From positions 130,641,708-130,705,707 of the forward strand of contig OZ038381.1 of the NCBI GenBank assembly GCA_964036045.1: a stretch of 64,000 nt of DNA, in the 5' to 3' direction. The stretch is from Eutreptiella sp. 'Long Island Sound 2002' (taxonomy: Eukaryota > Euglenozoa > Euglenophyceae > Eutreptiales > Eutreptiaceae). The notes under the pieces were generated by a model. It saw only the letters and a list, made by a program, of their open reading frames with translations, made no database searches and was not told the origin of the DNA. Positions 10,922 through 60,517 of this stretch are shown here, one piece after another. The translations under genes and the position numbers were made by a program. Numbering within the stretch: the first letter of the stretch is position 1; each line of letters opens with the position of its first letter.

Positions 10922-10988
10922 CACCTGGCGGCGGCGGCCACCAACCACCGGACATTGGGCTCTGCGGGCCAGGGACGGCCACATACCG

Positions 10989-12313: not shown

Positions 12314-12341
12314 CCTTATCGCGGCCTTCCACAACCATGGG

Positions 12342-15255: not shown

Positions 15256-16190
15256 GGAAGAAACAGAAGTAAAGTGAAGCCCTGGAAGAAGATATGTGAT
15301 CATCGCAGATGATGTTGCATCCCTACTCCAAGCATTGAATTTATATATCATGCACATTTGGACGATGTGTTCAATTGTGCAGATGTGACGCCATGCAAGC
15401 AGAACCTCGACTCAACCCGTTGAGGCAAATGACATTAACTCATGGGATCATGCATGACAGAATCACATCAATGAGGTCCACATGGTGCATGGCAAAACAC
15501 AAAGGCAAATACAACACCATGGCATCATTGGACTCAACGTCAATGTGGCCCCTCATGGGCCATCTGCCCCCTTGCCTACATGACGGCAAAACAGGAAATG
15601 AGAAACATGGGCTCCTGACATGAAAACATTTTCTCACCGTGGATCAAGCATGACACCACAGTCAGAAGTCACCAATGAACAGAAATGCAGAGCTTGCAAC
15701 AACGGACACTAAATATCAGTCGGGGGAGTCACCTCACAGCAATACCTGACACCTGGCATGTGTGACACATCACATATATCATCATGCTGGCATTGCCTCG
15801 GTACTTGACACCGAAAGCTGGGTGCCTATCACTCGGTAATAACATACCCAATGGTCAGCAAATGAATAGCTTGGCGGGTCTACTTAGTGATAGCAAACCA
15901 GGCATCAAGAAGGGGCAGCCCACCAACCCTCACATGCTTAGTGAATGCTGTATAACGATTGCTGGGCTCGTGCGGGTAGAGTGTCGCGCATCAAAAGCAT
16001 GAATAAAGTGAAAACCCAACATACAACATATACCTCATGCCCTCAGCTGCTTGGACATGCCACTCAGTCCCCTCACCCCGGGCCTGATTGCTTCGGAACC
16101 GAAGGCATTGGCAAACACATCATGTGCATTAGAAACCATCCAAACATGGACATGTGAAATCAATGTTGCCTAATTGCATGTTTGTGTGAC
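15256..16190. other. AT-richer intergenic DNA, no gene seen
   Basis: Base composition drops from strongly GC-rich to balanced. Short open frames (up to ~94 codons) show no domain. I found no repeat shared with the rest of the window, no TSD and no RNA gene. Confidence 0.5.
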
Positions 16191-31337: not shown

Positions 31338-31668
31338 TCACAGGTGGGCCATTAGGGCCTGAGACCTCTTCCTGAACAACCTCAAGTAGCGTGTGAGAGT
31401 AGAGGTGGTAAGGCTGGGTGAAGGCTTGGGCACAGCGCCCCCTTGTCCTTGCCTTGGTGCCACTGTAGTGTGTGTAGGACCTGTAGTGAGTGTCTCACTG
31501 TCCTGCAGGTTTCGTGAGGTTTTATCAGGGTTTTCTGGTGGGCAGTGGCAGTGGTAGTCTAGGTTTTGGACGTCTAGCAAACACTCGTTCTCATGCCTCG
31601 AGGCTTTTGGCCATACCCCCTCCTGTAGTAGGCAGGTAGGTTGGCAAACCAATACCTTGGCGTTAGCG
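31338..31668 (-). other. Flank of WW-element copy A, probably Ty3 3' region
   Basis: Removing the WW element makes this stretch contiguous with 34,544-34,758, which lies just 3' of the Ty3 chromodomain on the minus strand. It therefore probably belongs to the 3' untranslated region or LTR of the large Ty3 element. A minus-strand frame of ~110 codons is Thr/Ser-rich with no domain. I could not find a matching 5' LTR to confirm. Confidence 0.4.
31652..31668. repeat. Target-site duplication, left, WW-element copy A
   Basis: ATACCTTGGCGTTAGCG; its partner ATACCTTGCCGTTAGCG is at 34,527-34,543 (16 of 17 identical). Confidence 0.85.
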
Positions 31669-31929
31669 TTCACTTTCTGGGTGTCTATTGCTTTTCGATG
31701 TCCTTAGATCCGCAATGAAATCGGGGTCTTGGGCATGACCCATCATTAAAAACTGCACCCATCTGTTGAAGACGCAGTCCGGAACGCCCGATCACAGGGT
31801 CGGGCGTGGAAACGCCTGATTACCGCAGCAGTACAAATAGCTACGGCCACAGGCGATTTTGCGCAGCGCCACAGGGCTTTCCTGAGTATTCCAGTGAGTG
31901 TGCAATAACCTTCTGCACCTATAGCAACA

Positions 31930-32565
31930 ATGCGTCCGTCGCTTCTGTGCAGCACAGCACCGTTGGCACGATCCACCGCAACGTGTTTTAGGGGCCCACT
32001 TTGCCCATATCTCGCCGCTGGCCGCTGTATGTCTTCACAAGTCCCTGTTCAGGCCCCTTACTATGCCAACAGTCCAAATGCGTGCGCCGCAACCGGAGTG
32101 GAGACTCTCTTCTCCGGTACGTGTACTGCTGCTTCGCCGAAATACTTCCATTTTCCAGCGACCGCGGCCTTACCTCACCAGGAAGACAGCACTGCCGACC
32201 TGCAACTACGAAGCAACGAGCACTTGGACATCCTACATATGTGTGCCGCAACGGATGTCGAATCTCTCTCCCCCAGTGCGTGCACTGTTGCTTCGCCAGA
32301 ATACCACCAGTCGCAAGGGTCGACATCCTTCACTCAAAAGGCAAAGAACACCACAGGCCTGCCGTTAGGCATCAACGTGCTCCCAGCGCAATCATGGACA
32401 TCGTCAGGTTCACGCCTCACGCGTGACAAAAACAGTCAGTTTGACAGCCGCCCACCAAAACCTGTCGCACTCGCGCAATTTGCTTCACAAGCGAACTGGC
32501 AAGGCTCTCACTGCAGGCCACAGGTCGCGCCTCCAAGGAGCAAAATCTCTCACCAACGCCCCTGA
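31930..32565 (+). CDS. WW-element ORF-a, 211 codons with internal duplication
   Basis: The frame contains a tandem internal repeat of about 53 residues: CAATGVETLFSGTCTAASPK with ADLQLRSNEHLDI, then CAATDVESLSPSACTVASPE with TGLPLGINVLPA (DNA at 32,083 and 32,242). A trace of an earlier repeat may precede it. The C-terminus is Gln/Pro/Ser-rich. Copy B has a comparable tandem repeat (around GVLYYEANNYFG, 46,780-47,030, minus strand), which suggests conserved architecture. No known domain. The true start may lie upstream. The frame ends 245 bp before ORF-b and could originally have been fused to it. Confidence 0.45.
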   Translation: MRPSLLCSTAPLARSTATCFRGPLCPYLAAGRCMSSQVPVQAPYYANSPNACAATGVETLFSGTCTAASPKYFHFPATAALPHQEDSTADLQLRSNEHLDILHMCAATDVESLSPSACTVASPEYHQSQGSTSFTQKAKNTTGLPLGINVLPAQSWTSSGSRLTRDKNSQFDSRPPKPVALAQFASQANWQGSHCRPQVAPPRSKISHQRP

Positions 32566-32810
32566 ATAGCCGCCCAGATACTACTCTCACTCCGCATTGG
32601 TACCAACAGCAAAGCCCCTGCGGACAACGACAGTGCCCTTGTCTCCCCTGGTCAATTGTGGTAGATGAATGCGATGGAGTTACTGATTAAAATGCAGGGA
32701 GCACCCAATGCAAACTCGAACAACACGTGAGCGATCTCGCTCACACGACAGAATGCAATGGCCAAGAAAAATTCAAGCCTCCGCCACAGAGTGGACCAGG
32801 CCGGTGAGCC

Positions 32811-33785
32811 GTGCGTCTGAATTCAAGCATGAATGAAACTGACCGGCACGAGGGGAGATCAATTCTGAGCCGTACGTGGTTCTGGCAGTATGAGCGCAAA
32901 GGGAGCTCCTGCTACGGTGAATATGCGTCAGCAATGAAAACCACCCTGCATCGATCTGCCGACCATCTCTTGCCACTCCTGGAAGCCAAGGAGTCACCCG
33001 ATGAAAGCACCCGTCAGGTTCTGACAGTACATGCACATCAACGCATTGATTCCAAGTTCAACGCAGCCTGGCAACGCAATTGTTCAATTGTTAGGAGAGG
33101 ATTCGCACCGCGGAAACACACTGTCACCAGTCTGGAGAAGCTCTTGGTACAGAACCGCCTGATTCACCACAACGGAGTCATACAATGCCAGACACACTTG
33201 CCGGCAGCCCCACCTGTGCGTCAATTACACTCATGTTTGCACCAGCACAGCCTTTCATCTTCTACATCGCAGACCATGCCTCAACTAGAGAGATCCGCCG
33301 TGCTTGGCCCTGTGGCGCCGCCTCAATCCATCATTGTAGGAGGCCACACAGTCATCGCAGAAGGAGCCTCTAAGTCTCTTATACCAGCGGCAAGGGTACA
33401 ACAAGATAAATCGGATACGGAATCCAGACGTCCCTGTGGGCCACGCTCCACGCCCGAGCCCAGTCTAGAGTCGGCTTCGAGCGCCTCAAGTGTGCAAACT
33501 ACCTTCTCCCCTTCCGACTGGGAGGAAACCAATTCGATGGAAAGCTGCCTCTCTGCATCGGCTAGTGTCTTGCCACACTCTGAGCGAACACATCAAGCTG
33601 ATACGAGTCCGTCAACAACTGCTTTACTGAATGTCTCCAACCGGCCTGCTTCAAAGTCATCACGCAAGGTAGCTCCTAATATGTGGCACGAGTACGATCG
33701 AGCTCACGACGACTGGTATTACTACAACCAAACAACTGGAGTAACCTCATGGGTTTCACCCCCACACATGCGGGCAGCGCGCTAA
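32811..33785 (+). CDS. WW-element ORF-b, 324 codons, C-terminal WW domain
   Basis: Residues 292-318 form a WW domain: first Trp W292 (codon 33,684), the aromatic stretch WYYYN (302-306), T308/T309, second Trp W314 (codon 33,750) and the trailing P317/P318. The W-to-W spacing of 22 and the YYYNxxT core fit the family, which binds proline-rich or phospho-Ser/Thr-Pro ligands. The rest is Ser/Thr/Gln-rich and probably disordered, except residues ~40-110 (LRQVLTVHAHQRIDSKFNAA-like segment, basic and helical). The stop falls seven residues after the domain. The start at 32,811 is the first ATG of the frame. The equivalent domain in copy B is broken by TAA. Confidence 0.65.
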   Translation: MRLNSSMNETDRHEGRSILSRTWFWQYERKGSSCYGEYASAMKTTLHRSADHLLPLLEAKESPDESTRQVLTVHAHQRIDSKFNAAWQRNCSIVRRGFAPRKHTVTSLEKLLVQNRLIHHNGVIQCQTHLPAAPPVRQLHSCLHQHSLSSSTSQTMPQLERSAVLGPVAPPQSIIVGGHTVIAEGASKSLIPAARVQQDKSDTESRRPCGPRSTPEPSLESASSASSVQTTFSPSDWEETNSMESCLSASASVLPHSERTHQADTSPSTTALLNVSNRPASKSSRKVAPNMWHEYDRAHDDWYYYNQTTGVTSWVSPPHMRAAR

Positions 33786-34526
33786 GCAATGCCCGTGGCT
33801 AATGCTTAATCTCTCTTTTCCCTACATATTCCATGACCAGAGCTGCCCCCAGGTCTGCCGTTTCTAACAAACTCTCTGCTTCGAGCGTTGCTGCACCCAG
33901 TTCAGACACTCTCCCACCTTCTCCACTTGCCCCTCAGTGGCTGACAAGTATATATTCACCGAGCCCTGTGAGGCTGTCATATATTTGCCTCCTTCAAATC
34001 AGGTTCATACCTGTCTGCACACCACAGCAGTTCTCCAATCTGTGCACATGCCGTGCCCCTGTGTCTTCGCCGTTTGCACTTTTGAGGTTCTCTCAGGGGC
34101 TAGACCAATTTTGCATTTGGTGAAATGGCAAAGTTCGCACGAGGGGCCAGTGCAACATAACCAGCCAGTTCATTGGTCATATTCCATTTCAACCAATGTT
34201 TAGGGCGCTGGCACTCAGTGCGCCACGTCATTCAATCCTCATGCCACCACCACTTCGTAATGTTCACAAACAACAACAGCACAGGGGGACATCACTCAAG
34301 GTACACACACACCACGATCACCACACACCTAGGCACACAAATACACACATCCATCACACTCACAAACCGAAAGGACATGACAAGCACACACAAAGGTATT
34401 AATCTATTGTATACATTACCTGAACGTCCTATAATACAGTTAACCAACCCAATTGTCTGTTTTGTATTGTAGTATTATATGGGGAACGAGCCCATGGACA
34501 AGTTGTGAGCAATAGTAATCATCATC

Positions 34527-34543
34527 ATACCTTGCCGTTAGCG
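34527..34543. repeat. Target-site duplication, right, WW-element copy A
   Basis: ATACCTTGCCGTTAGCG, directly after the (ATC)n tail; partner at 31,652-31,668. Confidence 0.85.
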
Positions 34544-34758
34544 CTGGGTATTCCCCAAAGGGTGTTTGGTGCCAGCACAGAGATTGGGCACCTAGGGGCG
34601 GAGAGACCTGAGGCGTACCCCATGGCACCGTGTAAAGACATCCGCCGGGTTTAGCAAGGGTGCATACTTGGGTATAATTAGGACACCATTTCTGTAGCTT
34701 GCTCATAGGTCCTCAGGCTCAGCATACTCACGCAAACATAGGCAGGTATAGAAAGGGT
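34544..34758 (-). other. Ty3 element 1, sequence 3' of the chromodomain
   Basis: Non-coding on the minus strand after the chromodomain stop (34,759). It continues, across WW-element copy A, into 31,338-31,668. It probably holds the 3' UTR or start of the 3' LTR, but no LTR partner is visible in the window. Confidence 0.4.
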
Positions 34759-35004
34759 TCAGTCCCTAGGCTTCTTCTGTGAGGCAAGCGTTTCAGCGAG
34801 CCTCAGCAACTCCCCTAGGTTGTTCCCGGACAAGTAGTCTACCAGAACTAAATTGAGGTGTCCCTCAGGAAGCACTAGGGCAGAAAAGGGCTCCCACGTG
34901 GCTTCTTCAACCACAAACCCTTCCCAGAGAGAAAGGAATCGCCACCCTTGGCGGTATCGGTGTCTGATGACCAACTCAACCAGGTAGAAGCCTTCCTTAG
35001 TCAT
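34759..35004 (-). pseudogene. Ty3 element 1: chromodomain, cut off from pol
   Basis: The frame reads GFYLVELVIRHRYRQGWRFL, SLWEGFVVEEATWEPFSALV, LPEGHLNLVLVDYL. The pattern Y-V-E...R...(F/Y)L-W-x-G-(F/Y)...TWEP...V-x-x-Y is that of the chromodomain at the C-terminus of chromoviral integrases, which guides integration by reading histone marks. It ends with ASQKKPRD. The apparent ATG start is an artefact: the first codons are the severed continuation of the pol frame ending at 41,870, separated from it by the 6.86-kb LTR element. Confidence 0.8.
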
Positions 35005-35005
35005 C

Positions 35006-35294
35006 TGTAATGGACTCGTTGTACATGGTGTCTATCTTTCCAGGACTACGAGCACGCAGACGGAAGCAGTGAAGACAGACTGGAACTTCTATACGATTCC
35101 AAAACATGTTAAGCTTGGCCTTCCTGTGTGAACAACACAGGAACGCCAACAATAGAATCGCATACAAGAAACATTTCATTCAAATGTATTTTACGAATCA
35201 AAACAATAGCTTTTCACATGTCAAAACATTTCAATGCACTGTGTGGACGCGTCCTGTGATCGCGGCGCACCTTGCCAGAGGCAATCCCATTACA
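35006..35294 (-). repeat. 3' LTR of nested element
   Basis: 289 bp, TGTAATGG...CCATTACA, roughly 90% identical by eye to 41,582-41,869. The LTR's first bases supply the TAA stop that ends the disrupted pol frame at the other end of the element. Confidence 0.9.
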
Positions 35295-36252
35295 CTCCCC
35301 TGCTAAGGTCAGCCATGCCTCTGAAAATCGAAGGCATGGCTGGACTGATAACCCATTAGTGGGGTTGTCACTGGCCTCTTCATTTTTCTTAATGCCTACA
35401 AAATAGAAACAGGAAGTGTGCCTAACCATTTGCGGTTGGGAAAGGGCCTGCTCTACCTTTGGCTACAAAAAGTCCCATTCCCATTCAGGGGGTGTGGTGA
35501 ACACTCCCCTGCTAAACTCCCCTGCTTCACACGACATAAAAAAACAACAATTCTACTTGATATTGTTTAATTATATAATAGAATGTATGCTGCCCTGGCT
35601 TCAAAACTACAACCATTTTGAAAAATCTGCAAACATTTCCCAGCCTAGGGGAAAACCCTGCAATGTTTCTCAAAACCGTGCAGTTTCAAAACAACAGGCC
35701 ACAATGCACACAACTGAGGCAACAACAACAAGAGAACGTGTGTTGCTTGGCTGAACTCAGTTTGCACAGGCACCGCAAAGCCATGTGATGCCGTGCACAG
35801 TACTGTACAACAGTGCATTTGTGCGTGTGCAAAAAGACTTGTTTGGCCTGCATTAGCAAGGCTCCATGTAGAACAGAAAATGAGCAAAACGAAGAAAACT
35901 GAGACAAACCCATACATATACCTGCGACCTCAGGGCCTTTTACAGCCCCCTCAGGGTATGAAAACACACCAGCGTCCGAGTCAATTTTTACATCAGTATC
36001 ATTCAGATCACATACCTGCCGCAAACACACTTGACCACCTGTCCGTCGAAAAGTAAACCAAAGACCTTCGCTCAAAAAGAGCGGCCAAGGGAGCCACAAG
36101 GCTGACACAAAAGCCGTTAAAAGCACTGGAGCCCCAAGGCTACAAAACCACGTCAAACCATGCACAGAGCCAGAAGGCTGCACAACGCACGGTGTGCTAC
36201 ACATTTGTCACGAGGGCAAAACGTTGCCCAACATAACCTGCGCACATGTAAC
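35295..36252 (-). other. Internal region of nested LTR element, 3' half
   Basis: A minus-strand frame of 172 codons (35,686-36,204) is Cys/Leu-rich and includes VCDLNDTDVKIDSDAGVFSY and PEGAVKGPEVAGICMGL, flanked by hydrophobic stretches. No family recognised. The polypurine tract is at 35,295-35,305 on the minus strand. Confidence 0.4.
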
Positions 36253-36261
36253 GTCAATGAG
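36253..36261. repeat. Putative 9-bp TSD of the (ACCT)n-tailed element, left
   Basis: GTCAATGAG, repeated at 40,818-40,826. It is short, so chance identity is possible, but it sits exactly at the (AGGT)n edge. Confidence 0.55.
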
Positions 36262-36414
36262 GTAGGTAGGTAGGTAGGTAGGTGCACTCGGTCGTGGAGA
36301 GGCGCCCCATGGTTCCCGCTGGCGTTGCCGCTGTGAAGAACAGGAAGAGGCTCCGCGCATGAAGAGGGGAGGCGGCTTACATCCTGCTAGACCTGACTGT
36401 TGGCCCCTAACAAA

Positions 36415-36760
36415 GCGGTCCCGGGCAACACCAGGAGGGCTGACCGCCCCAGCGTGACGTGCTTGTCTCGCCGGGAGGGTGTGCTCCCGTGCTTGCGCAC
36501 GTCCCCTCCTCTGGGCGGAACCCTAAAGGTTCACCGGACTTCCTGGCGTATCCCGTTCCCAGGGCATGCATGCATGTTCTTGGTACTGGTGTTCCGAGGC
36601 GCTTGGGTGTCGCACGCTCCGCCTCGAGTCCCAAAGCAGCGCAGGCCTTAGGATGCAGCCTTACCCCCGAGCTCCGGATCTCGTTTGGCCGGGTCACCTG
36701 CATGGGACGGGCTGCCTCAATGCCCGGCCTATGGACACTGGGTTTCCTAGTGTTGTGTGG
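36415..36760. repeat. Dispersed block paralogous to 755-1,110
   Basis: Same order of motifs as at 755-1,110 (see there), better preserved, and leading directly into the 127-bp satellite. Confidence 0.8.
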
Positions 36761-38665
36761 CGCTTGTGTTTGGGTCTGGGTTGTGCTTGGGCCCGGGTTT
36801 CGGCTGCGCCCTGCCACTCCTGGCTGGGGTGATGGGGTGTGTGTGTGTTTGCGTGCGCGCCCTGCTTGTACCCCGCCACTCCTGGCTGGGGTGTGCGGTG
36901 TGGGTGTGGGTGCTTGGGCTCGGGTTTCGGCTGCGCCCCGCCACTCTCGGCTGGGGTGTTGGGGTGTGTGTGTGTTTGTGTGGGCGCTCCGCTTGTACCC
37001 CGCCACTCCTGACTGGGGTGTGCGGTGTGGGTGTGTGTGCTTGGGCTGGGGTTTCGGCTGCGCCCCGCCACTCCTGGCTGAGGTGTCGGGGTGTGTGTGT
37101 GCTTGTGTGCACGCTCCGCTTCTACCCCGCCACTCCTGGCTGGGGTGTGCGGTGTGGGCTTGTGTGTTTGGGCTCGGGTTGTGGCTGCGCCCCGCCTTTC
37201 CTGGCTTGGGTGTTGGGGTGTGCATGTTGGTGTGCGCGCTCGGCTTGTACCCCGCCACTCCTGGCAGGGGTGTGCGGTGTTAGTTTGTGTGTTTGGGCTT
37301 GGGTTTCGGCTGCGCCCCACCACTCCTGGCCGGGGTTTTCCGGCTGTGTGTGTGCTTGTGTGCGCACCCCGCTTGTACCCCGCCGTTCCTGGCTGGGGTG
37401 TGCTGTGTGGGTGTGTGTGCTTGGGGTCGGGTTTCGGCTGCACCCCGCCACTCCTGGCTGGGGTTTTGGGGTGTGCGTGTGCGCGCTCTGCTTGTACCAC
37501 GTCAGTCCTGGCTGGGGTGTAACGTGTGGGTGTGTGTGCCTGGTCTCAGGTTTCCGCTGCGCCCCGCCAATCCTGGCTGGGGTGTTGGGGCGTGTGTGTG
37601 CTTGTGTGTCCACTCCGCTTGTACCCCGCCACTCCTGGGTGGGGTGTGCGTTGTGGGTGTGTGTGCTTGGGCTCGGTTTCCGACCGCGCCCGACCTTTCC
37701 TGGCTGGGGTGTTGGGGTGTGTGTGTGCTTGTGTGCGCGCTCCGCTTGTACTCCGCCACTCCTGGATGGGGTGTGCGGTGTGGGTGTGTGTGCTTGGGGT
37801 ACGGCTTTCGCTGCCCCCCGCCACTCCTGGCTGGGGTGTTGGGGTGTATGTGTGCTTGTGTGCGCACTCCGCTTGTACCCCGCCACTCCTGGCTGGGCTG
37901 TGCGGTGTGGGCGTGTGTGTTTGGGCTCGGATTTCGGCTGCCCCCCGCCTTTTCTGGCTGGGGTGTTGGGGTGTGCGTGTTTGTGTGCGCGCTCCGCTTG
38001 TACCCCGCCACTCCTGGCTGGGGTGTGCAGTGTGGGTGTGTGCGGTTGGGCTCGGGTTTCGGCTGCGCCCCGCCACTGCTGGCTGGGGCCCTGGAGTGTG
38101 TGTGTGCTTGCTTGGGCACTCCGCTTCTACCCCTCCAGTCCGGGCTGGGGTGTGCGGTGTGGGCGTGTGTGATTGGGCTCGGGTTTCGGCTGCGCCCCGC
38201 CTTTCCTGGCTGGGGTGTTGGGGTGTGCGTGTTTGTGTGCGCGCTCTGCTTGTACCCTGCCACTCCTGGCTGGGGTGTGCGGTGTGGGTCTGTCAGTGTG
38301 GCCTCGGGTTTCTGCTGCCCCCGCCACTGCTGGCTGGGGTGTTGGGGTGTGTCTTTATTCGTTTGCGCGCTTCGCTTGTACCCCGCCACTCCTGGCTGGG
38401 GTGTGCGGCGTGGGTGTGTGCACTTGGGCTCCGGTTTCGGCTTCGCCCCGCCACTCCTGGCCGGGGTGTTGGAGTGTGTGTGCGTTTGCGTGCGCGCTCC
38501 CCTCGTACCCTGCCACTCCTGGCTGGGGTGTGCGGCGTGGGCGTGTGTGTTTTGGCTCGGGTTTTGGCTGCGCCCCGCCACTCCTGGCTGGGGTGTCGGG
38601 ATGTGTGTGCCCCTGTGTGCGCGCTCCGCTTGTACCCCGCCACTCCTGGCTGGGCCTTGTGGTGT
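36745..38665. repeat. 127-bp dimeric satellite, ~15 units
   Basis: taccccgccactcctgg recurs at about 36,871, 36,998, 37,125, 37,250, 37,378, 37,497, 37,624, 37,751, 37,878, 38,003, 38,130, 38,255, 38,381, 38,508 and 38,635, mostly 125-128 bp apart (one unit 119). Within each unit the core ccccgccactcctggctggggtgt occurs twice, about 65 and 62 bp apart, so the unit is a dimer of two diverged ~63-bp monomers. G/T-rich on plus, C/A-rich on minus. It has very few stop codons in any frame, which produces the long open frames noted under rejected items. Confidence 0.95.
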
Positions 38666-39400
38666 CTGGGTTTGGTGTTGCCTGGCACCTGTTCTGTGCC
38701 GTGGTTTGTTGCGTGTTGTGCGCGCCGCCCGGGTTTGCGGCACCCGGTGGCCGTTGTTGCTTGGCACCTGTCCGTGTGCCTTGGTTGTGGCGGGCGGCTT
38801 GCCTCTCTGGCGTGCCGCGTGGCCCCACGTGGTGCGCCTCGCCTCGTCCGGTCCGGTCGCTCTCAGTGCTCCGGTTGTCTTTCCCGACGCCGTGGTGCCT
38901 TTCCCCAACCCAGAGGCTTGCGCCCCCGGCTTTACTGGGTGGCTGGCAGAGAACCGGGCTCATTGTGCCTGCCGCTGGCCCCCGCCGAGGCAGGGGCGCT
39001 GGGCTCGCTCCGCGTCGTACCCGTTCGGGGCCCCGCGATGGGGTTGTCCCTGGCGGGTCCCTCCGGTGTCGGTCTTGGGCTGTGTGCGCTGCAGTGGTTG
39101 GCGTGTGTGGACCTGGTCACTGACGCGTCCGGTTTCCCGTACCGTCCGTCTTCCGACAGGGCACTCGGCCGGTGCACCGGGGCTGTTTTGTGTGGACGCC
39201 GACACCGCCCTATTTGGGTCGGAGGACGCCACGCCCGGGTCCCGCGCGTGTGCCCGTGTGCGTGCCCTGCTTCGCCGGGTCGGGCGGACCGACCTCCCGG
39301 GCGCATTGTGGTGCGCCTCACCTTGTCCTGTGGCCGGTCTTGCTGCGCTCGTTGTTTGGTCGGCCCCCTCCGGGCTGGGGTTGCCCTTCTTTCCTTTTGT
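38666..39400. other. GC-rich insertion sequence, no gene
   Basis: Non-repetitive GC-rich sequence inside the satellite-bearing insertion. Long frames continue through it in all registers only because stops are rare. No domain seen. Confidence 0.5.
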
Positions 39401-39408
39401 GCGCCTCG

Positions 39409-39830
39409 GTTGTTCCTGGCATTCCTTGTTTTCGGGTCCGGGCTGCCTGGGGCCTTGGTGTCTTGCTGCCCCCCCCTTTCTCTTCCTTTTTCCTTTTCTT
39501 TTCTCCACCCCACCCGCTTCCCCGTTTTCTTCTCCGCTGTGTGTGCACCCGTTGTCTCTGGCGTTCCGTGTTTTCCGGCCCAGGGTGCCTTGGGCCTTGG
39601 TGTCTTCTTGTACCCCCCTCCCCCCCCTTTTTCTTTGTTTTCTTTTTCCGTGCTGTTTTCCTTCTCTTTTGCCTGCCCTTCCCTGGGCCTTTTTTTCCTC
39701 CCCCTTTTTCCTCCCCCGCCTTTTCCTTTTTTTTTCCTTCTTTGTGCGCCCCCGTTGTCTCCGGCGTTCCGTGTGTTCCGGCCCGGGGTGCCTTGGGCCG
39801 TAACGTCTTGTTGTCCCCCCCCCTTTTTTT
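39409..39830. repeat. Imperfect 142-203-bp pyrimidine-rich tandem repeat
   Basis: gttgtctctggcgttccgtg and variants start at 39,409, 39,551 and 39,754, each followed by ggg.tgccttgggccttggtgtctt and a variable C/T tract. Length differences come from the poly-pyrimidine part. Confidence 0.8.
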
Positions 39831-39869
39831 TCCCTTCTTTCCCGTTTTTTTTCTTGTTTGTGCCTTGTC

Positions 39870-40668
39870 GCTTGTGCTGTGCGGGGCTGGTTTGTGTGTC
39901 CTGGGCTGTGGGCTGTGCTGGTGTGTGCTTCGGTGGTGCTGTCGCTGTCGTTGCTCTTTGTGCGGTGCTCTCTCGCCCCTCTGGCGCTGGCTGGTGTTGT
40001 GTGGGGTTGCCTGTTGTGTTTGGGTGTTTGCTGTTGGGCCTGGCTGTCCTCTGCTGCCTCCTGGTGGGTCCTGGTGTCCTGTTTGGGTGGTGCTGTCCCT
40101 GTCTGGCCGCGTGGCTCGGCGTCCTGTGGTTTGATGTGGTGTGTCTTCGTGCTCCACTGCCCTGTGTTGTGTTCTGTGGCGCTGTGCTGTCGTGTGGTGG
40201 TGTGCTGCTGTGCTCTGATGTTTGCTTGCGTCGTTGCCTCTGCCTGTTGTTTGTTTCCTGCCGCTGCGCGTCTGTTGTGTGTGCTCTTGGGTGTCGTGCT
40301 GTGCTTTCCCTGTCTGCTGCGCCCTGTGCCGTGCTGTGCTGCGCTGTGTTGGTACCCCTGCGTTGTGCTGTCTGCGTGGTCTGGGCTGTTGCTGGTGCCT
40401 GGTGCTTTTGGTTCCTGGTGTCGCTGCGTGATTTTGGGGGTCCGCTGGTGGCTCTGGTTGTCTGGCGCTGTCGTTTGGTGGTGTTTGTCGGCCTTGGTGT
40501 CCGTGTCTGGCCGCTTCTCCTGTCGCTTGGCGTCTTCCCTGTGGTGTCCTGCTCCCCTGTGTTGTGTCCTGTGGCGCTGTGCTGCCGTGTGGTGCTGTGC
40601 TGTGGTGCCATGTGGTTTTTTTTTCTTCGCCTTGCTTGTGGCGCTGGTTGTCTATGTCCCCTAAAGAA
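39870..40668. repeat. GT/CT-rich low-complexity DNA with ~395-bp partial duplication
   Basis: ccctgtgttgtg.cctgtggcgctgtgctg occurs near 40,158 and again near 40,555, with tgtctggccgcgtggc-like context before each. Composition is almost only G, T and C on the plus strand. Confidence 0.65.
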
Positions 40669-40817
40669 TTTCTTGTAAAACCCGTGAAATTGGTTTTCCG
40701 TTTTTGAAAAGAAAATTCAAAATTATACTCTACGCAACCCACGCGCGTGCAACGAGACCACATTGTTCCCTCTGACTTATGTGTTACCCGTCGGCCTCAG
40801 TGGCGTCGTTGTTGAAT

Positions 40818-40826
40818 GTCAATGAG
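40818..40826. repeat. Putative 9-bp TSD of the (ACCT)n-tailed element, right
   Basis: GTCAATGAG; partner at 36,253-36,261. Confidence 0.5.
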
Positions 40827-40974
40827 AAAACCAAAAATTTTCTTCCTTCACCGAACAAGATTAATCAACTTGAGGACACAACAGTTTACTGGGCTGTGGT
40901 GCCGCCACCTTCGTCTCTCGCTTCTGTGCCGCCGCCTGCGCCTCTCGCAATCGTAGCATCCGCCGACCTCGTTT

Positions 40975-41523
40975 TCAACGTCTAGTGTTGCGCCTCTGCG
41001 CTCCTGCACCCTCTGCCGGCGCACTCGCTGGCGCTGCTTGTACTGGTGTTGACAGCGTTGCAGGCCAAACAGCCACACGAACCTGCTGACTGCGTTGTAA
41101 CAACGCATGCTCTTGCTGAAGCCTCACATGCTGAGCACCGAGTTCGTCAAACTCCTTTTGCAGAATGGTGAAACCCACACTGGACGTCCCACCAGTTGGC
41201 TGCTGCCGGTGATCGCGCAACTGTTGCAACCTCTTACAAACCGCCGCAAGCTGTGCACGAAGCTGTTGTAATTGCTCCTTTTGCTGCCGAACGGTTCGAA
41301 TGTTCGCTGGTAGTTGATCCTTTTGCTTTTGAATGGTTCGGGTGTCTGACTGACCTTGTTGGCGCAGACCAGTATTCGAAATTTGATGTTTACCCAACTC
41401 TTGCTGAACAGCATCTCTAGCGGCCCGCACTTGCTGTAGCTCGTCTTCTGCTTCATGCCTCTCAGGCGACAGACGCCGAGCACTTCCACAGCTGCAGTTC
41501 TGACACTCGTCACAAGGCATCAA
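40975..41523 (-). CDS. Coiled-coil gag-like ORF of nested LTR element, 182 codons
   Basis: The frame opens 37 nt after the PBS-like site, where gag is expected. Three Leu/Gln-rich helical stretches with heptad character are visible: EDELQQVRAARDAVQQELGK (~27-46), VRQQKEQLQQLRAQLAAVCK with RLQQLRDHRQQ (~78-110), and LQKEFDELGAQHVRLQQEHA with LLQRSQQ (~121-148). The C-terminus is Ala/Pro-rich and basic (GAQRRNTRR). The N-terminus has a CxxCxxC-like run (MMPCDECQNCSC). It could form oligomeric particles like a minimal Gag, but no capsid fold or zinc knuckle is evident. Uninterrupted. Confidence 0.55.
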   Translation of the reverse strand: MMPCDECQNCSCGSARRLSPERHEAEDELQQVRAARDAVQQELGKHQISNTGLRQQGQSDTRTIQKQKDQLPANIRTVRQQKEQLQQLRAQLAAVCKRLQQLRDHRQQPTGGTSSVGFTILQKEFDELGAQHVRLQQEHALLQRSQQVRVAVWPATLSTPVQAAPASAPAEGAGAQRRNTRR

Positions 41524-41559
41524 GAGGACAGGAAAACATGTGGTGCGAGCCCATAATCA

Positions 41560-41577
41560 CGTCCCAAAGGGACGCCA
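41560..41577 (-). promoter_or_regulatory. Primer-binding-site-like motif
   Basis: On the minus strand, TGGCGTCCCTTTGGGACG begins four bases after the LTR end (CCATTACA-agct-TGG). Position and TGG start fit a tRNA-primed PBS. The cognate tRNA is not identified. Confidence 0.5.
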
Positions 41578-41581
41578 AGCT

Positions 41582-41869
41582 TGTAATGGACTCGTTGTAT
41601 ATGGTGTCTATCTCTCCAGGACTACGAGCACGCAGACGGAAGCAGTGAAGACGAACTGGAACTGCTATACGAATCCAAAACATGTTAAGCTTGGTGTTCC
41701 TGTTTGAACAACACAGGAATGTCAACAATAGAATCGCATACAAGAAACATTCTATTCAAATGTATTTTACGAAAAAAACAATAGCTTTTCACGTGTCAAA
41801 ACATTTCGATGCACAGTGTGCGCGCGTCCTGTGATCGGTGCGCACCTTGCCAGTGGCAATCCCATTACA
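41582..41869 (-). repeat. 5' LTR of nested element
   Basis: 288 bp, partner of 35,006-35,294. Its right edge (minus-strand start) abuts the Ty3 pol frame, which it terminates with an LTR-encoded TAA. Confidence 0.9.
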
Positions 41870-43255
41870 CCATCTCCTCGGCATTCATGTCAGGGAGTTC
41901 TCCTTCAACTTCCATAGAGCTGGCAGCGCTCTGTAGGTCCAGAGCGGCAATCTCCTCGTTGTTTAGTTTCCGTTCTTCTCCACACAGGTTCTCTGGGTCA
42001 TAGTAGCGCTTGAGCTGTTGAGCAGCGCACACCAGGGTCCCCCCTAGTTCGGGAGAACACCGCACTGTGATGCGTTGACCATCCACAGACAGGATCGTGT
42101 AGGGCCCAAAGTAGGGATCATTGCTGGTGAAGCGAGGCGGGGCGGGTAACCGACTGTGGTGCACCAGCACCCAGTCTCCCTCTTGATAGAAGGCAGGCAC
42201 CCGGTGCTTGTTCTTCTCGCTCCACTCGCGCTTCCCCACTCTCTGCAGCATAGCCTTGGCCTTGTCCACCTTGTCTTGCTGCTCCTTTGCCCACTTACCC
42301 ACAGTGGAGTAAGAATCTTCAGGAGAACGAGCATGTAGGAACCACCCCGGGCGTCCCATGAACAGCTCATGGGGCGAAAAGCCAGTAGCCGAACTCTCTT
42401 GGGAGTTCATCATCAGGGATATGACGGGAAGTAGTCTCACCCAGTCTTTGGTGCGCTCAGTCTTGCACCATATCATCACTTTCTCTTTCAGAACTCGAAT
42501 CTGTCGCTCACATAGTGGGTTACTCGTACGAGTTTAGGGAAACCCTTTTGACACCTGGACATTGAGGGACCTCAGGACTCTGTTGTACCAGTCGGTGTCG
42601 GAGCGTACTCGGACGTCCTCGTCTGAGTTAATTTCTTTGGGTGCCCCATAGACGCAGAACCACTCTTCCAGGAGTTTCTTGACGGTCTCCTGGTAAAACT
42701 CGTCAGCCCACAGGTTACCACTAGGGCAGAGTCATGGCTCCAGAACTTAGACATCTCCGTATACTCCACATAGACTACGCTGTTGGCACAGCGTGGGATA
42801 GGAAGGGTCGAGTAGAGACCTCTGTCTCTGATATCCCCAGGTTTGCAGGACCGACACGGGCACTTGTCCACGATGGGCTGGAGGGTTTCTGGAGGATCGT
42901 CACTGCACGTTGAGTGGAACCACTGTTTGAACAGCTTCAGGGTACGGTCAGCTCCACCATGACCACTAGACTCATGGGTCCACTTGAGGAGTGCCAGGAT
43001 ACGGTCGCTAGGCACGACTTTCCAGTCCTGATGCCAGAGGTAGGTCCTGTTCCTCTTCCATTGTTCCTGGTTGACCAGGACAGGTTCCAGACGCTTTTCC
43101 AGGTGTTTGTAAAAGTCTCCAAACTCCTTGAGGTACTCAACTTGTTGGAGTCCATCTAGGGGTCTGATCATGGTCAACGCCCCCTTGGCTAGCTCTTCAG
43201 ACAAGGCACCAATCATGTCGTCAAAGTTGTTGCGGCGATGTATTCCGCACACTCG
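41865..43255 (-). pseudogene. Ty3 element 1: integrase
   Basis: The 43,252-42,572 frame contains the N-terminal H2C2 zinc domain (SSGHGGADRTLKLFKQWFHS then VDKCPCRSCKPGD) and the start of the catalytic core (CANSVVYVEYTEMSKFWSHD, ALVVTCGLTSFTR). Frameshifts near 42,690 and 42,540 break the core. The 42,479-41,865 frame gives its end (TKDWVRLLPVISLMMNSQES, TGFSPHELFMGRP) and a GPY/F module (NDPYFGPYTILSVDGQRITV). The product would insert cDNA into chromatin. The frame runs into the nested LTR; the chromodomain that should follow is at 34,759. Confidence 0.85.
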
Positions 43256-43350
43256 TTATTGACGCCCTCGATATGCCGCGCTGAGAGCCGTAGCTGGCTC
43301 AGGTAGGTCCACGAGCGTCTGAACTTAGCCTTCTCAGGTGGGGGTCCCTT

Positions 43351-44801
43351 CTAGAAGGTGCGGACCGGTTCATGGTCACACAGCCAAACCACTGGGTTGC
43401 TCCCCAACAATCGGGGCTGTGAGAATAGCACCAGCATACTCGCGAGCAATTCCTGCTCATAGATAGAGTTCTTACCCCTGGCCTGGTTCCATTTCCAGTT
43501 CGAATGGCTAAGGGGAACCAGGACCCACTTGTCAGCAGGGTAGCTGTGCTTGAGAGTACCGTCTCTGTTCAGTCCATCCGTCCCCCATTGGGAAATGGCC
43601 GAGTCGAACTGCTCCTTCTCTAGTGTTTGCCATTCGAACAACGTTCCACCTCCACCCACATTGCTGGCGTCAGTCACCAGTATATTTTCTCCTTGTGCTC
43701 TAGGCAGGCCCAAGCACTTAGCGTTGGCCATTTTATCCTTGAGCTCGTCAAACGCTTGTTGCTCTTGAGGCCCCCAGCGCCAGGTAGTGCTCTTCCTGAT
43801 AAGGTCCGTCAGGATGGCGCTGGTGTAGGTGAAATTTTTGATGTTGCGGTGGTAGAAGTTGCAGGCCCCAATGAAACTACACACATCATGGAGTCCTTTC
43901 TTGGGGTCTTCATGTTGTACCTTGGCGTCCGTCAAAGGTTTGGCCTTAGAGGCAGCTCGGGTCCACCACCCATAGCCAATGTCAAACCCCATATACTGCA
44001 TGGTCTCCTGATTGAACTCATACTTCTCCAGCTTGAGTCTGGTGTGGTTCTCCTGGCAGAACGGGAAGAACTCGCCCAAGATGACTAGGTGGTCCTCCAG
44101 GGTATTTGTTCCCAGGCATACATCATCCTTGTGTGCTACCATCTGGGCGCCCCAGGATATGAGTTCTTGCACCACAGACCTCCGACGTAGGATGGACAGT
44201 ATTTTGTTCATCAGCTCTTGAAAAAGAGCGGGTGCATTTGCCACGCCAAAGGGCATGATATTCCACTTGAAGACCCTTCCCTGAGGGGGGATGAAGGCTA
44301 GGAGTTCCTGAGCATTGAGGGTCAGGTCCACTTGCCAGAATCCACTCCTTTCATCCATCTTCGTCTTGTAGCGGTAGGAGGCTATCTTCTCGAAGGTTGA
44401 TTCCATGTTAGGAATGGACCCTGAGTGGTTCAGTGTCTTCTTGTTCAGCTCTGGGTAGTCCACACCAGCCGTTTGGCTGTAGACCCAAGCTTAGCCACCA
44501 GGAAACAGGGGCTGCAATGTGGGGGGTAGTCCCCATCCTTGTACTCCAGAACCAGGCCGGCGTCGATACATTCCTGTATCTGTCGCTCTATTCCATCGGC
44601 CTGCTCTTCAGGAGATTGGTAGGGTCTCCTATGGATCTTGTGACCCACGAACTCGGGTATCAGCTTGAGGTCCATCTGTACTAGCTTGTAACAGGAAGCT
44701 TGAAGGGGTAGTTCTCCGAACACCTCCAGGTAGGTCCTGATCAGCTTCTGTACTCTAGGGTCTAAGAGCCTGATCTTGTCCTCGCAGTCTTCGTCAGACT
44801 G
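43351..44801 (-). pseudogene. Ty3 element 1: reverse transcriptase and RNase H
   Basis: The 44,723-44,445 frame has the RT N-terminus (MDLKLIPEFVGHKIHRRPYQ, QIQECIDAGLVLEYKDGDYP). A frameshift near 44,460 leads to the 370-codon frame with MDERSGFWQVDLTLNAQELL, VFKWNIMPFGVANAPALFQE and MVAHKDDVCLG. The catalytic pair is D113/D114, with Lys where a hydrophobic residue is usual before DD. Then come YMGFDIGYGW, the SFIGACNFYHRNIKNF connection, and RNase H ENILVTDASNVGGGGTLFEW with DHEPVRTF. Ty3/gypsy order and motifs are unmistakable. It is inactive through frameshifts and the upstream insertion. Confidence 0.9.
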
Positions 44802-44817
44802 TAGATTGCTTGCCCCT
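44802..44817. repeat. Target-site duplication, WW-element copy B (left)
   Basis: TAGATTGCTTGCCCCT, identical to 47,475-47,490. Confidence 0.9.
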
Positions 44818-45525
44818 GATGATGATGATGATGATAAATGCTCACAACTTGTCCATGGGCTGCTTCCCCCTTTTTCATTTACATAAGGCGTTCCGGTTGC
44901 ATTGGTACCACAGATGGGTAAGTGTCTGTTTACAATATTATATTTGCCTAAGTGTGTGTGTATGGTTGATTGTGAAAACTGGTGTGATTGTTTGAGTGCA
45001 AGTGGTGTGTGTCTCTGTGTTGTTTGAAATCATGCGGCCCATGACGTTGTATGTGTGTGGGAACAAAAAACCCAGAGTTGGAATGAGGCTGTAAACTGAG
45101 GTGGGTTGTTCTGATATAGAACACTGAGGAGCACTGAAGGTCAATGACCTGAATCGGTGGGGTAGTGACCCAGGCGTTTGTATTTTGCCATTGAAAATGG
45201 TTGCTGGTTTCGAAAATCCCTGGCGTTTCACCCCTAGAGAAAAACAACCAGGCAGCACTGCAGGGTCAGGTAATGCACGGAGTATGTGTACACAAAAAGG
45301 TGTCATATGAAGTGTGCAAGCAGTGAAAGGTTCTTGCGAACACTTGTAGCGGTAGCAACAGAAAAATATGTAAGTTTTGGTGATAACAGGGAAGGTGGTG
45401 TAAAGCTGCAGCAGGGCGCAAAGAGAGTGTTGCCGCAGCTGCCGCTGCTTGAAGGATTGCAAAAAAGTGAAACTGATGCTGGATTGGGAAGGGTGGCGCT
45501 TACGGCGTCCCTCCAGTGTTGAACA

Positions 45526-45775
45526 GTGGACTCCAGGAGGAAGCCCCTATCATCTGATTGTAGTAGTAGAAGCGTCCTTAAGTCAGATCAAAAGCCTTCC
45601 AGATGTTTGGGGCTGCTCTTTGTGGAGACGTGTCGGAAGAGGGGAGGCTCACGGTGACTGACAGATGGTCGTAGCAGACCTTGGTGGAATGGAAGGGGCC
45701 GATTTTGAGGTGTACTGGGACGTGGTCACCTTCAAGCCAGTCCAAGTCATCGCTGGGGCAGTAGAGGGCACTCAC
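45526..45775 (-). pseudogene. WW domain of copy B, interrupted by TAA
   Basis: Minus-strand reading: RAAPNIWKAFDLT, stop (45,578-45,580), GRFYYYNQMIGASSWSP. It aligns with copy A (KVAPNMWHEYDRAHDDWYYY, NQTTGVTSWVSPP): first Trp at 45,599-45,601, YYYN core, second Trp at 45,533-45,535. Upstream, SDDLDWLEGDHVPVHLKIG and SLPSSDTSPQ are weakly similar to copy A. This is a decayed paralogue of the 324-codon ORF-b. Confidence 0.7.
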
Positions 45776-46453
45776 CGTGGTCGTGTAATAGCCGTAGCAA
45801 ACTTTTGTGGTGTTGAAATTTGCAGAGCTGGCAGCGTCAAAGAAGCCGTCATTCTCCAGCCAATCGAGGTCTTCTTGGACAGAAGTCGCTGAAGTGTGAA
45901 ATGCCTACGAAAGCCGGTGCCGCTGCACTGACGAAGGCGGCGGTGTGGTGTTGTCGCTCTCTGACGCCCAGAAGGCTCCACGCGGTACGCTTGAAGCTGT
46001 GCTACTCTCTGAGCCAATTTCTTCATTCGAGACATCGGAGGTTGAGCATGGGGTCTGTCTGCCGCACAAAGTCCATGCATTGGTAGGCGGCGACGCGCGT
46101 GTGCACTGCAGGACAACAGGCCAAGATGATGGCATGGAGCGACAGTACGGGGCGTTTTTTTTCTTCCCGTGCCGACTGGGATGCTTTTGGACGCTGGCAA
46201 GGCGACGTTTACGGTATGCCCTGACAGCACGAGTGGCCCTAGAAACATGTGTGGCTGATGGCTTGATGGAGGAGTCAGCTCGCCGCACTACGGTGAAACC
46301 CGGTAGGACTGAATCCAAAAGGAGGGTGTCAGTCGTCGGAGGGGCTGCTGTTGCGGTCGGCAGCGTAGCAGAGGGTTGCAGTGGGCCGAATAGAATTGGA
46401 GGAGTGAATGTCATCGACCATGTTGGCTCAACTTCCAGATCCTCGTCGGTCGA

Positions 46454-46879
46454 TCACTCTGGGGGCAGGAGATCAGTGTCGGAGTTGAAAGACGGGAAGG
46501 CGGGGGTGTAGGCAGGCGCGGGCTCGTAAATGTCCTCTAGGTGGTTACTGTTCAGGCACGGTGTCGCTGCAGCACATACAGAGACAACGGTCTCGACCGG
46601 CGGGGCTACTTTGACCCCATGAGAGAACCTGGCGGAGGTTGACAGACATGAGAGATTCCTGTGGTTGACGCGGCTTCCCGAGTCATGAATTCGAAATACG
46701 TGATGAGCAGTATCCTTGATCGGAGATATGGTTTGAGCATCAGCCGGTGAAAATGCTGTGGCGACATGACAGTCAACGTTCGTGCTTGCTGGCAATGGCA
46801 CGCTGTCAGCTGGACCAAAGTAGTTGTTGGCCTCGTAGTACAGAACACCTGGATCCTGAGACACCGTGGTGGGGAACAT
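46454..46879 (-). pseudogene. WW-element copy B, upstream ORF fragment with internal repeat
   Basis: 141-codon frame with DPGVLYYEANNYFGPADSVP, CHVATAFSPADAQTISP and EDIYEPAPAYTPAFPSFN. A related segment (GVLYFEANDFINLAPE, ATALPPTDA) precedes it at 46,885-47,030 behind a stop, i.e. a ~45-residue tandem repeat. ORF-a of copy A has the same kind of repeat, though sequence similarity is weak. Unknown function. Confidence 0.4.
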
Positions 46880-47474
46880 TATTTAAGCATCGGTCGGAGG
46901 AAGCGCTGTGGCACCAGGGCAGGCAAGGTAGCTGTCTCCGCCTGACGGCAATATAATTTCGGGAGCTAAGTTTATGAAGTCGTTGGCCTCAAAGTACAGA
47001 ACGCCAAGATTCTGATCTGCATGTGCGTAGTATGGCCCTCCAGGGTGGAAGCAAGTATTGGTCCACGCCGCGTAGTCACGTTAAGCATAGCTCCATCGAT
47101 GTTCGTTCGCCCGCCACTGTGAGTGGCTGGCAGTGTATTGGGTTGTCGGCGGTGATTGTGTCGGCCAAGGAGGCTGACATGGCAAGTAGCCTGCAGGCGG
47201 AGAACGAGGGAAACAATGGAGACAAGAAAGAAGATGGCTGGTCTCCAGGCGTTGAAACAGCGCTGTGTGCGACAGAATCAAGGTGATGGCGGCGTTTAAT
47301 ACAGACAACGAGTGGCCATGTGTCGGTGCCATTAGTCAATGAGGTTGGCAATCGAGAACTAACGAAATGTACTACATATCACAGGGGTAAAACCCTGTGT
47401 AAAACCCCCTGTGAAAACTCCTGCCGGCACCAGATTGAAGAGTGCCAGATGATTAGGATCCACCCCCGGATATA

Positions 47475-47490
47475 TAGATTGCTTGCCCCT
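47475..47490. repeat. Target-site duplication, WW-element copy B (right)
   Basis: TAGATTGCTTGCCCCT, identical to 44,802-44,817. Confidence 0.9.
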
Positions 47491-54982: not shown

Positions 54983-57200
54983 TGAAGCGGTACCCAGAAC
55001 CCCATGGCTAGGGTAGGGCATACAACCGGTCTCCGGTCCACTAATCCCATGTACGGAAGGGAAGACCGGTCTCCGGTCCACTAACCCCATGTACGGAAGG
55101 CGCCCATTGACGCCCGGTGCGAGCCCGGCGGGAGCGTGTTCCGTGCCGTAAAGCCCCGCATCGGCAACCGATGCACCGCCAGCGGAGATTTATATATCAG
55201 AACATCAGGAATCAACAGGGTTTTATTTTCATATTGTTTCCGTCAATTGTCACCCTTCCGTTCTGATATTCACTGTTGGGCAGCTGGCGGTTAGCTCGCG
55301 ACTCTAGCGTAACCGCCAGTTTAACTGTTATATACAGATATTTTAGCGCAAATCGTGACGAAGACTCTAAAGTCTTCAGGAGTTGCATTGATGCATCCGC
55401 AATTTTCACATCTTACACTCGCAACCTTGATCCGAATTTTTCAGGATGTCGAAATCGGATTTTCGACTTCGACATCCCCGCACTTGATTTGACCTCTTTC
55501 GAGTGGACCTACGTGCTTCCCTATGCACGAATCAACTTTCCTTTTGTCTTGCCCTCCATTTGTCTTAGAGATATGGGCAAAACAAAGTTGATTCGTGGGG
55601 CCACTTGTGAGGGTCATATCTCGTGCTGCTTGCGAGGAATGAAAATAAGGAAACGTGGGATGTATTCACAATACTCCCGACATAATTTAGAAAGCTTTAT
55701 ATGCCTTGCATCTCCACACGTGCGTGCTAGCGTAATGGATCATGGTCAAGAGGGGAGAGTTTGCGTTACAACTCTTTGGCCATGATATTGCGTGCGTTAA
55801 GATAACTTTCGAGTGTAGCGCGCGAGTGTTGGTGTTGCATAGGAACTCTCCCTGAGTTCCTATGAGCGATTGACACAAAGTTATGCCCTTGGAGGGGCAT
55901 GACATATCGTGGGGGGAGCTACCTTTTTGGGCAATATGTGGTATGTGCCATGTGTTGTGTTCCGTGCCCATTTGGCGGGTCCATCGCTCCAAGCCAAACC
56001 CGCCAATGGACCTCATATTGCGCAAGCCCCTTCTCCATACTCCCCACGATCAATTGCAAGCCTAACCTTCGTGGAGGGTAGCTTGTGTGGCGATCCCAAA
56101 GCGATGCGTTGGGAGCAAGGTGTGTGTTTTGCAATTTTCCATATTTTCATGTGCCCACTTGGGAAGTAGCGCTCGTAACCTTTCAAAGCGCCCCAAGTGG
56201 AGTACATATGTGGAATCGGGGGTCATTGGTGTCAAGTCATTGTGTTTAGAAGGATTGGTCGATTTCCCAATCCAAGCCGAAGATATTATAATATATTTGT
56301 GCGCCTTTCAAGGCACTTTTGGGTGTTCTTTCGCCAGTATTGCTGTTTTTTGCCCGTCATGATGTCAAGTGGCGACCTTGCATCTCAACGTTGCGCGCAA
56401 TTGACATCATGACCCAAGTATGTTATGTGGGTACATACTTCGGTGCCCAACATATCTTGGACCCAGCAAATGACTCCTCTTGGGCTTGGCATACCGTGGC
56501 CGCCATGTTTGCAATTTGGGACTATCCCAAATCATGGGCTCACTTGGCGACCCTGCCATTCCCAAAACCGAAGGAGTTGGGCGACGCCAAAAAGATATGT
56601 TGGACACATATGACTTGGTACCAATCCTATGGCACACTCTGGTCCAAGTCGGGCAAGTGCCTCATTTGCCTCAACCATGGGTGTGCGCATTTTCGGCTAT
56701 TTTGAGCAATTTTCAACTTTTGCTGCCCGCCGTGCACTATGCTCAGCCCACCCGTGCACGCCGGACGCATGGACCAATGGACCTTATATGACATGGGTGT
56801 TATGTATATTGGTCCCCATGGTTCACACACCACGTGGGCGAAGCGGAGCAACCTTCGTTAAGGTGCTAGCCCAAAGTGAGTGTGGGCAATTTTGCCATTT
56901 TGGCATTTATGGACCCAATTGGGATCGTCACCACGCCAGGTGGCATGGAGATCTTTGAGAGCCAAAGTCATGGGAGTCTCTGTTGGACTCCCGGTGGATG
57001 GCGTACGGAGAGGCGAATCTGATCTCCAAGCCCCTTTTGGGACCCCAATTGCAACCCCCCGTGTGGTCAATTGGCGGCCCCATATCTCTATGCCCATGAG
57101 GAGCCCGGACCTAATTTCAAGTTGTACACTCAGATATGAATCCCTGGTCCGGCCTCCTGCCCTGTGAGCCATTGACGCCAATTTTGGTGGTTTTGGCATC
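54983..57200 (-). repeat. Ty3 element 2, left (3') LTR; right boundary uncertain
   Basis: 54,983-56,800 is repeated in direct orientation at 62,190-64,000 (both start TGAAGCGGTAC; offset 7,207, falling to 7,200 through small indels such as the ttataata difference near 56,288). Divergence is a few percent by eye. The direct repeats flank a minus-strand gag-pol, so they are LTRs of at least 1.81 kb. The true right end lies between 56,800 and about 57,780 and cannot be set because the window ends. Internal features: a 41-bp duplication (accggtctccggtccactaa at 55,025 and 55,065), a TATA-like ttatatata at 55,190, and a 13-bp inverted repeat at 56,356-56,368/56,401-56,413. Confidence 0.8.
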
Positions 57201-60466: not shown

Positions 60467-60517
60467 GTCACCATCCTGCGACCGCCCTAGCTGGGGCCCT
60501 TGGCTGCAGGGGCTCCG

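Follow-up and report, generated by a model that had tools for sequence, protein, structure and literature searches.

The 64,000-nucleotide stretch of the genome of the euglenid Eutreptiella sp. 'Long Island Sound 2002' analyzed here (contig OZ038381.1, positions 130,641,708 to 130,705,707 of the forward strand; hereafter the window) contains two insertions, A and B, which represent two lineages within a single mobile family. Sequence comparison suggests that both are probably copies of a protein-coding retroposon that lacks a reverse transcriptase, is headed by a spliced leader and would work like HAL1 or HeT-A. An initial annotation of the window had described A and B as either a non-autonomous element or a repeatedly retroposed host gene carrying a WW-domain protein. 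In addition to what it described, the 5' end of A is a spliced leader, a branch of the family carries another C-terminal module, and the 5' half of A is akin to a second family (family 2) with another 3' end.

As shown in Table 1, each copy lies between target-site duplications; the coordinates of A and B in the initial annotation proved exact, and the 16–17-bp duplications that it placed at their flanks are present. Within the window, the 23-bp motif common to the two 3' ends has no match beyond these two places, even when three mismatches are allowed. A chance likeness of the two ends was rejected, as none arose in 100 shuffles of the window or in the genome control. The two 3' untranslated regions (UTRs), previously called alignable, are so only through intermediates such as L037, whose 3' end matches 157 bp of B at 82% and 150 bp of A at 69%; BLASTN of A against B aligned the last 48 bp only (88%, E 5e-12). 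Direct DNA alignment of the two bodies likewise failed, and homology is drawn instead from the WW C-terminus and the intermediates. In both copies the WW domain lies near the stop codon at the end of the frame. The reading frame of A shifts between 32,565 and 32,811, and in B the upstream open reading frames (ORFs) and the WW ORF share one frame (47,080-45,503), interrupted by stops; the TAA already reported inside its WW domain lies at 45,580-45,578.

Table 1. Coordinates of A, B and associated features (window positions unless a contig is given)
Feature	Position	Strand	Remarks
Retroposon copy A	31,669-34,526	+	Between target-site duplications; at least 65 DNA matches in the genome
A target-site duplication, 5' copy	31,652-31,668	.	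16/17 bases identical to 34,527-34,543
A target-site duplication, 3' copy	34,527-34,543	.	One mismatch versus 31,652-31,668
Relic of Euglena spliced leader, A 5' end	31,671-31,697	+	3 differences; leader from PMC6242988 (excerpt)
A upstream open frame, ORF-a	31,909-32,565	+	Related to N-terminal part of family-2 protein (C4:130673625-130674137, 45%)
A ORF-b, 324 aa (P0001)	32,811-33,785	+	
WW domain of A	33,675-33,761	+	Pfam 21.2 bits, under cut-off
A 3'-terminal motif	34,489-34,511	+	Then ATC repeats up to 34,526-34,528
Retroposon copy B	44,818-47,474	-	Between target-site duplications; at least 47 DNA matches in the genome; sits inside a long terminal repeat (LTR) retrotransposon
Reverse transcriptase frame of LTR retrotransposon hosting B	43,354-44,490		Pfam
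B target-site duplication, at B 5' end	47,475-47,490	.	16/16 bases identical to 44,802-44,817
B target-site duplication, at B 3' end	44,802-44,817	.	16/16 identical
B long frame interrupted by stops, 526 codons	45,503-47,080	-	70% identical to intact P0003
WW domain of B, TAA within	45,530-45,601	-	Pfam 22.3 bits, X at stop, under cut-off
B 3'-terminal motif	44,839-44,861	-	Then ATC repeats up to 44,818
Endonuclease matches with upstream leader	C2:6415159, C2:14702552, C2:15844124		

Genome-wide searches covered the 2.28-Gb eukaryotic assembly, and because only the best candidates were scored in the match searches, copy counts are lower bounds. Besides the matches counted in Table 1, three further loci are 80–83% alike to A across most of its length, and three further loci are nearly full-length relatives of B (85–86%). 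The 3' motif, searched as 21 bases with at most one mismatch, occurred 135 times (reversed control, 0). In place of a poly(A) tail, which was seen at none of these ATC ends, at least one ATCAT directly follows the motif in 29 of the 30 exact copies, A and B included, and L070 has a single ATC. The consensus over 36 ends reads TATGTAAATAAAAAATGGGGAAGCAGCCCATGGACAAGTTGTGAGCAtttATC(ATC)n, and agreement falls to background ∼30–40 bases upstream of the motif; only this flanking agreement is independent, as 30 of the 36 ends had been retrieved with the motif itself. The terminus remains alike between lineages whose bodies no longer align. Family 2 ends in 4–6 A, so a short A tail is possible there.

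The insertions show the hallmarks of LINE-type (long interspersed nuclear element) retroposition, namely duplications that vary in length and copies that are truncated on the 5' side but share a fixed 3' end. Of 27 motif loci scanned, three (L060, L067 and L072) are ∼45 bp long, contain little beyond the 3' end and lie between duplications of 15–19 bp with one mismatch each, which is the pattern left by target-primed reverse transcription. Longer copies have duplications as well (L031, 16/16; L035, 16/16; L027+L044, 15/15; L029+L073, 15/17; L033, 13/15), as do the family-2 copies L039 (17 bp) and L040 (16 bp). As a separate observation, a 0.7-Mb interval at C12:5.37-6.05 Mb contains, on both strands, at least 11 copies of the motif with one mismatch, all ending in GAGAA or GAGGA.

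We then turn to the opposite end of the copies. Two bases past its duplication, A starts with CACTTTCTGGGTGTCTATTGCTTTTCG, and the same leader string stands at the start of 27 other places, right after the duplication or flank. It is exact in 14 of these 28 places and within four edits in the others, and the 364 kb of sequence examined contained no instance of the reversed string. Because 23 of the 27 places were found via the DNA of A, mostly its 5' part, they were bound to contain the leader; internal matches led to L035, L036, L037 and L074, the last a distant copy. Mature Euglena gracilis mRNAs start with ACTTTCTGAGTGTCTATTTTTTTTCG, and the leader is missing from some Euglena mRNAs (excerpt of PMC6242988). 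Most full-length copies are headed by a spliced leader, and its presence at the 5' ends of A and the 27 other copies indicates that the RNA copied was a trans-spliced mRNA and marks the host as a euglenid. Three side observations concern the leader. First, in unlike lineages (e.g. L011, L033, L035, L036, L037 and L074) it is followed by 7–10 bases ending in AG (ATGTCCTTAG, ATGTCTTCAG, ATTTATGCAG, ATGTCACAG, ATGTCAG and ATGCCACAG), and the T-run of the leader with the downstream AG looks as if it could be reused as a splice acceptor. Second, the leader-headed copy L073 (C14:9661700-9665800), which goes with L029, has frames inside that possibly belong to a nested transposon; by their motifs we take them to resemble a hAT transposase with a chromo-like part. 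Third, the donor of a leader RNA gene begins with GT, and with leaders followed by G omitted to exclude such genes, 1,116 exact leaders were found genome-wide (control, 0); with so many relics, copying by way of mRNA may be common across the genome of this euglenid.

The encoded protein was compared next. Against the curated Pfam cut-off for WW (PF00397) of 26.9 bits, A scored 21.2 bits (E 3e-4) and the fragment of B, its stop read as X, 22.3 bits; the WW domain claimed for the two frame ends is present in both, below the cut-off. Among five further copies, four exceed it (34.4, 31.2, 31.2 and 27.8 bits) and one does not (23.8 bits), and L064 and L047 also remain under it (24.5 and 21.9 bits). 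In all, WW was recognized in 13 copies, and one of them has its best Protein Data Bank sequence match in the paired WW domains of Prp40 (1o6w, E 9e-4). Pfam found no reverse transcriptase in A or B, as had been noted before, nor in P0002, P0003 and the family-2 proteins. Searches of 5.8 billion proteins returned P0002 for A, P0003-P0006 for B (8,000 candidates scored) and P0007-P0009 for family 2 (P0007 representing 19 sequences), none of them named; searches of viral contigs and of genome contigs gave 0 matches. P0003 is an intact 607-aa relative of B encoded in the same genome (C3:97,766,264-97,768,084), with which the B frame, X standing at its stops, shares 70% identity over the length of the frame. 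Over the common WW end, P0001 and P0002 match P0003 with z scores of 12.9 and 14.6.

Family 2 (L039-L042 and others) is matched by the first 470 bp of A and by its ORF. Its inserts of ∼2.8 kb hold a single open frame of 643–661 aa (with one stop in L041) and depart from A in both C-terminus and 3' end; its protein shares with A a central domain (33% over 221 aa). Because P0007 and P0003 are dissimilar (z −0.4), A connects two otherwise unlike proteins. Among the 12 matches that span nearly the full family-2 protein at above 90% identity, all of them young copies, 7 are free of stops. The family-2 3' end occurs 173 times at up to two mismatches (control, 0), and 12 of 34 exact ends lie directly behind an ORF copy among the matches listed. 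In a third branch (L043, L044, L049, L051 and L054) a Cys/His-rich stretch, for which Pfam gave no significant family, replaces WW and the ATC end is retained. An N-terminal CCCH zinc finger, considered by eye only, was not called by Pfam. Further, L036 and L037 continue from B-like sequence into an A-like WW and 3' UTR. Judged from these sequences, the lineages are mosaics.

We next asked how the ORF evolves. The nonsynonymous-to-synonymous ratio ω of family 2 (L040) was 0.34 against A, 0.30 against L033, 0.32 against L031 and 0.44 against L027+L044, compared with 1.0–1.6 in the two other frames. In the WW stretch, the corresponding ratio of proportions (pN/pS) between A-type and B-type copies (4 × 8 copies, 32 codons) was 0.51 (other frames, 1.48 and 0.91), and third positions account for half of the changes. 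The comparison of L064 with the remaining copies gave 0.53 (other frames, 1.64 and 0.68). Ratios within lineages were 0.5–1.0, and those of B against L048, L061 and L062 were 0.5–0.8. A set of 16 young copies (94.7–99.0% alike) showed 229 singleton and 24 informative sites, 10 of the latter common to one pair, which describes a star phylogeny from one source. Their singleton changes gave a ratio of 0.80, with 4 stops against 9.5 expected (other frames, 1.02 and 1.16). Taken together, the star phylogeny, the singleton ratio and the between-lineage ω values indicate that the ORF is kept by purifying selection at the source and between lineages, and that copies decay almost neutrally once inserted.

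These data bear directly on the choice that the initial annotation had left between an element and a retroposed host gene, for which it had proposed copy number, selection on the ORF and a search for an intron-bearing host locus as checks. All three were run: copies are many, selection between lineages is purifying, and no intron-bearing source was seen among the 78 and 89 scored matches (best candidates). Together they favor an element. The star phylogeny and the mRNA-type 5' ends nevertheless keep the host-gene option alive. According to that option, LINE machinery would have repeatedly copied the normal trans-spliced mRNAs that a few host genes produce, A and B would be processed pseudogenes, and the selection would act on the host genes. 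Spliced-leader 5' ends, the star phylogeny and near-neutral decay speak for it, the 1,116 genomic leaders suggest that mRNA retroposition may be general in this genome, and leader-tagged retrogenes are common in dinoflagellates (excerpt of PMC6050394). It accords poorly, however, with ATC ends in place of poly(A), with a fixed terminus in 135 places that include ∼45-bp copies and span lineages with saturated bodies, with a second terminus in 173 places, and with the mosaics between lineages. We therefore regard a host gene family as rather unlikely and a protein-coding retroposon as the better account.

Several results nonetheless weigh against that account. The star phylogeny is equally compatible with a single host gene, B begins without a leader, and the last 65–100 codons of old copies gave pairwise ratios of 0.8–1.4, uninformative alone. 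In the intact proteins P0002 and P0003, the WW stretch aligns but lacks one core residue, and Pfam does not call a WW domain there. No duplication was seen at 23 of the 27 motif loci, where 1.5 kb per locus was scanned and the 5' ends lie mostly outside, and L058 has a chance-like one of 12 bp; among longer copies there was none at L042, one of only 10 bp at L041 and none that was clear at L032. A strong fold of the RNA 3' end was also rejected, as the predicted hairpin is not more stable than shuffles (z 0.22, −0.41 and 0.87; family-2 end, 0.32). Finally, no partner LINE was found among the matches listed: compared by eye, none of the endonuclease matches lies within 10 kb of a listed 3' end of either family.

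This last result also concerns a further explanation, in which the protein would be ORF1 of a leader-headed LINE and the copies, having lost ORF2, would use the reverse transcriptase of their parent, as HAL1 does with L1. Endonuclease-bearing open frames are indeed present in the genome (146 matches, up to 2,007 aa), and of the four listed for the part of C2 below 48.8 Mb, three are preceded on the same strand by an exact leader 4.8–7.4 kb upstream (Table 1), so that there seem to be leader-headed LINEs with a long 5' part. In contrast, an exact upstream leader was found at none of the six listed matches on C1, and no reverse transcriptase was seen by eye in the part of the translations upstream of motif loci that was inspected, flanking LTR elements aside. 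Nor does any endonuclease match listed lie near a listed 3' end, and we consider such a half-LINE origin quite improbable. As an observation in its own right, an upstream leader at 3 of 10 comparable endonuclease matches suggests that some LINEs may also begin with the spliced leader. For an E. gracilis assembly, LINEs and SINEs (short interspersed elements) are given as 1.49% and 0.11% of the sequence (excerpt of PMC11252322).

Under the favored reading of a leader-headed coding retroposon, A and B would belong to a superfamily of non-autonomous elements. A source locus would be transcribed and, as the DNA 5' ends show, its RNA was trans-spliced to the spliced leader in most lineages seen. 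The RNA would encode a protein of ∼600–660 aa without a recognized enzyme domain, its C-terminus being WW in copies of the A/B branch and a Cys/His-rich stretch in those of another branch. Its fixed 3' terminus (a small hairpin, the 23-nt motif and AUC repeats) would be recognized in trans by a LINE reverse transcriptase, which, to judge from the hallmarks, would copy the RNA at a chromosomal nick and so leave 15–19-bp duplications and 5'-truncated copies. Most copies would be dead on arrival, and the few sources that persist would be those in which selection keeps the protein. Because selection keeps it there, the protein probably assists the RNA that encodes it, binding that RNA much as Gag would, and WW may dock it to a proline-rich partner; both roles are read only from position and selection. 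More tentatively, and with less than even confidence, we propose a superfamily that regularly begins with the host leader and encodes a modular adaptor, in which the C-terminus (WW, Cys/His or other) and the 3' terminus might be swapped between lineages to fit different reverse transcriptases or host docking sites.

The likeness to HAL1 and HeT-A is one of mode, and membership in either is not demonstrated. HAL1 of mammals is also a non-LTR element that has one protein and no reverse transcriptase and is moved in trans, encoding only ORF1p (excerpt of PMC5753468). It derives, however, from a known LINE, whereas here no parent LINE was found among the matches listed, the protein ends in WW or Cys/His, and a spliced leader forms the 5' end. 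The telomeric element HeT-A of Drosophila is not known to encode a reverse transcriptase. Only Gag is coded by it, with gag between two UTRs (excerpt of PMC3357415). In contrast to HeT-A, which extends chromosome ends, the insertions described here are dispersed and flanked by duplications. By definition, a SINE with a LINE-derived 3' end shares with the present copies the duplications, the truncation and a fixed 3' terminus that carries short repeats; here, unlike in a SINE, a selected protein of ∼600 aa is encoded, and a LINE sharing this end was not found among the matches listed. For the 5' end, the closest parallel is the leader-tagged retrogene of dinoflagellates, a genomic copy that starts with the spliced leader of the organism (PMC6050394 and PMC12014239). 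Those are copies of host genes, and ∼20% of full-length transcripts there have several leaders (excerpt of PMC6050394), whereas here a single leader stands at each 5' end scanned and the copies have a fixed 3' terminus. In the open-access listings searched, no non-LTR element with a WW domain or such a spliced-leader head turned up, and the titles and abstract openings there showed no euglenid element of this kind.

Other parts of the window are also repetitive. Positions 54,983-56,800 and 62,190-64,000 repeat each other in direct orientation (96.6% alike over a length of 1.8 kb), and between them lie a reverse transcriptase frame (57,695-59,002, minus strand) and a frame with a weak protease match (59,006-60,517, minus strand); together they are probably an LTR retrotransposon. 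A tandem array of a 127-bp unit (14.9 copies, 83% matches) occupies 36,782-38,654, and the GC-rich stretches of ∼5 kb at 5,078-9,897 and 10,541-15,257 form a tandem duplication with 86–88% identity.

Overall, if the favored reading is right, a euglenid would harbor a protein-coding retroposon without a reverse transcriptase that carries a protein-interaction domain under selection. Further, leader-bearing, trans-spliced mRNAs would be the RNA intermediate of mobile elements in a euglenid, and because the leader would both mark and orient retroposition events, the extent of RNA-based copying in Euglena would become directly testable.

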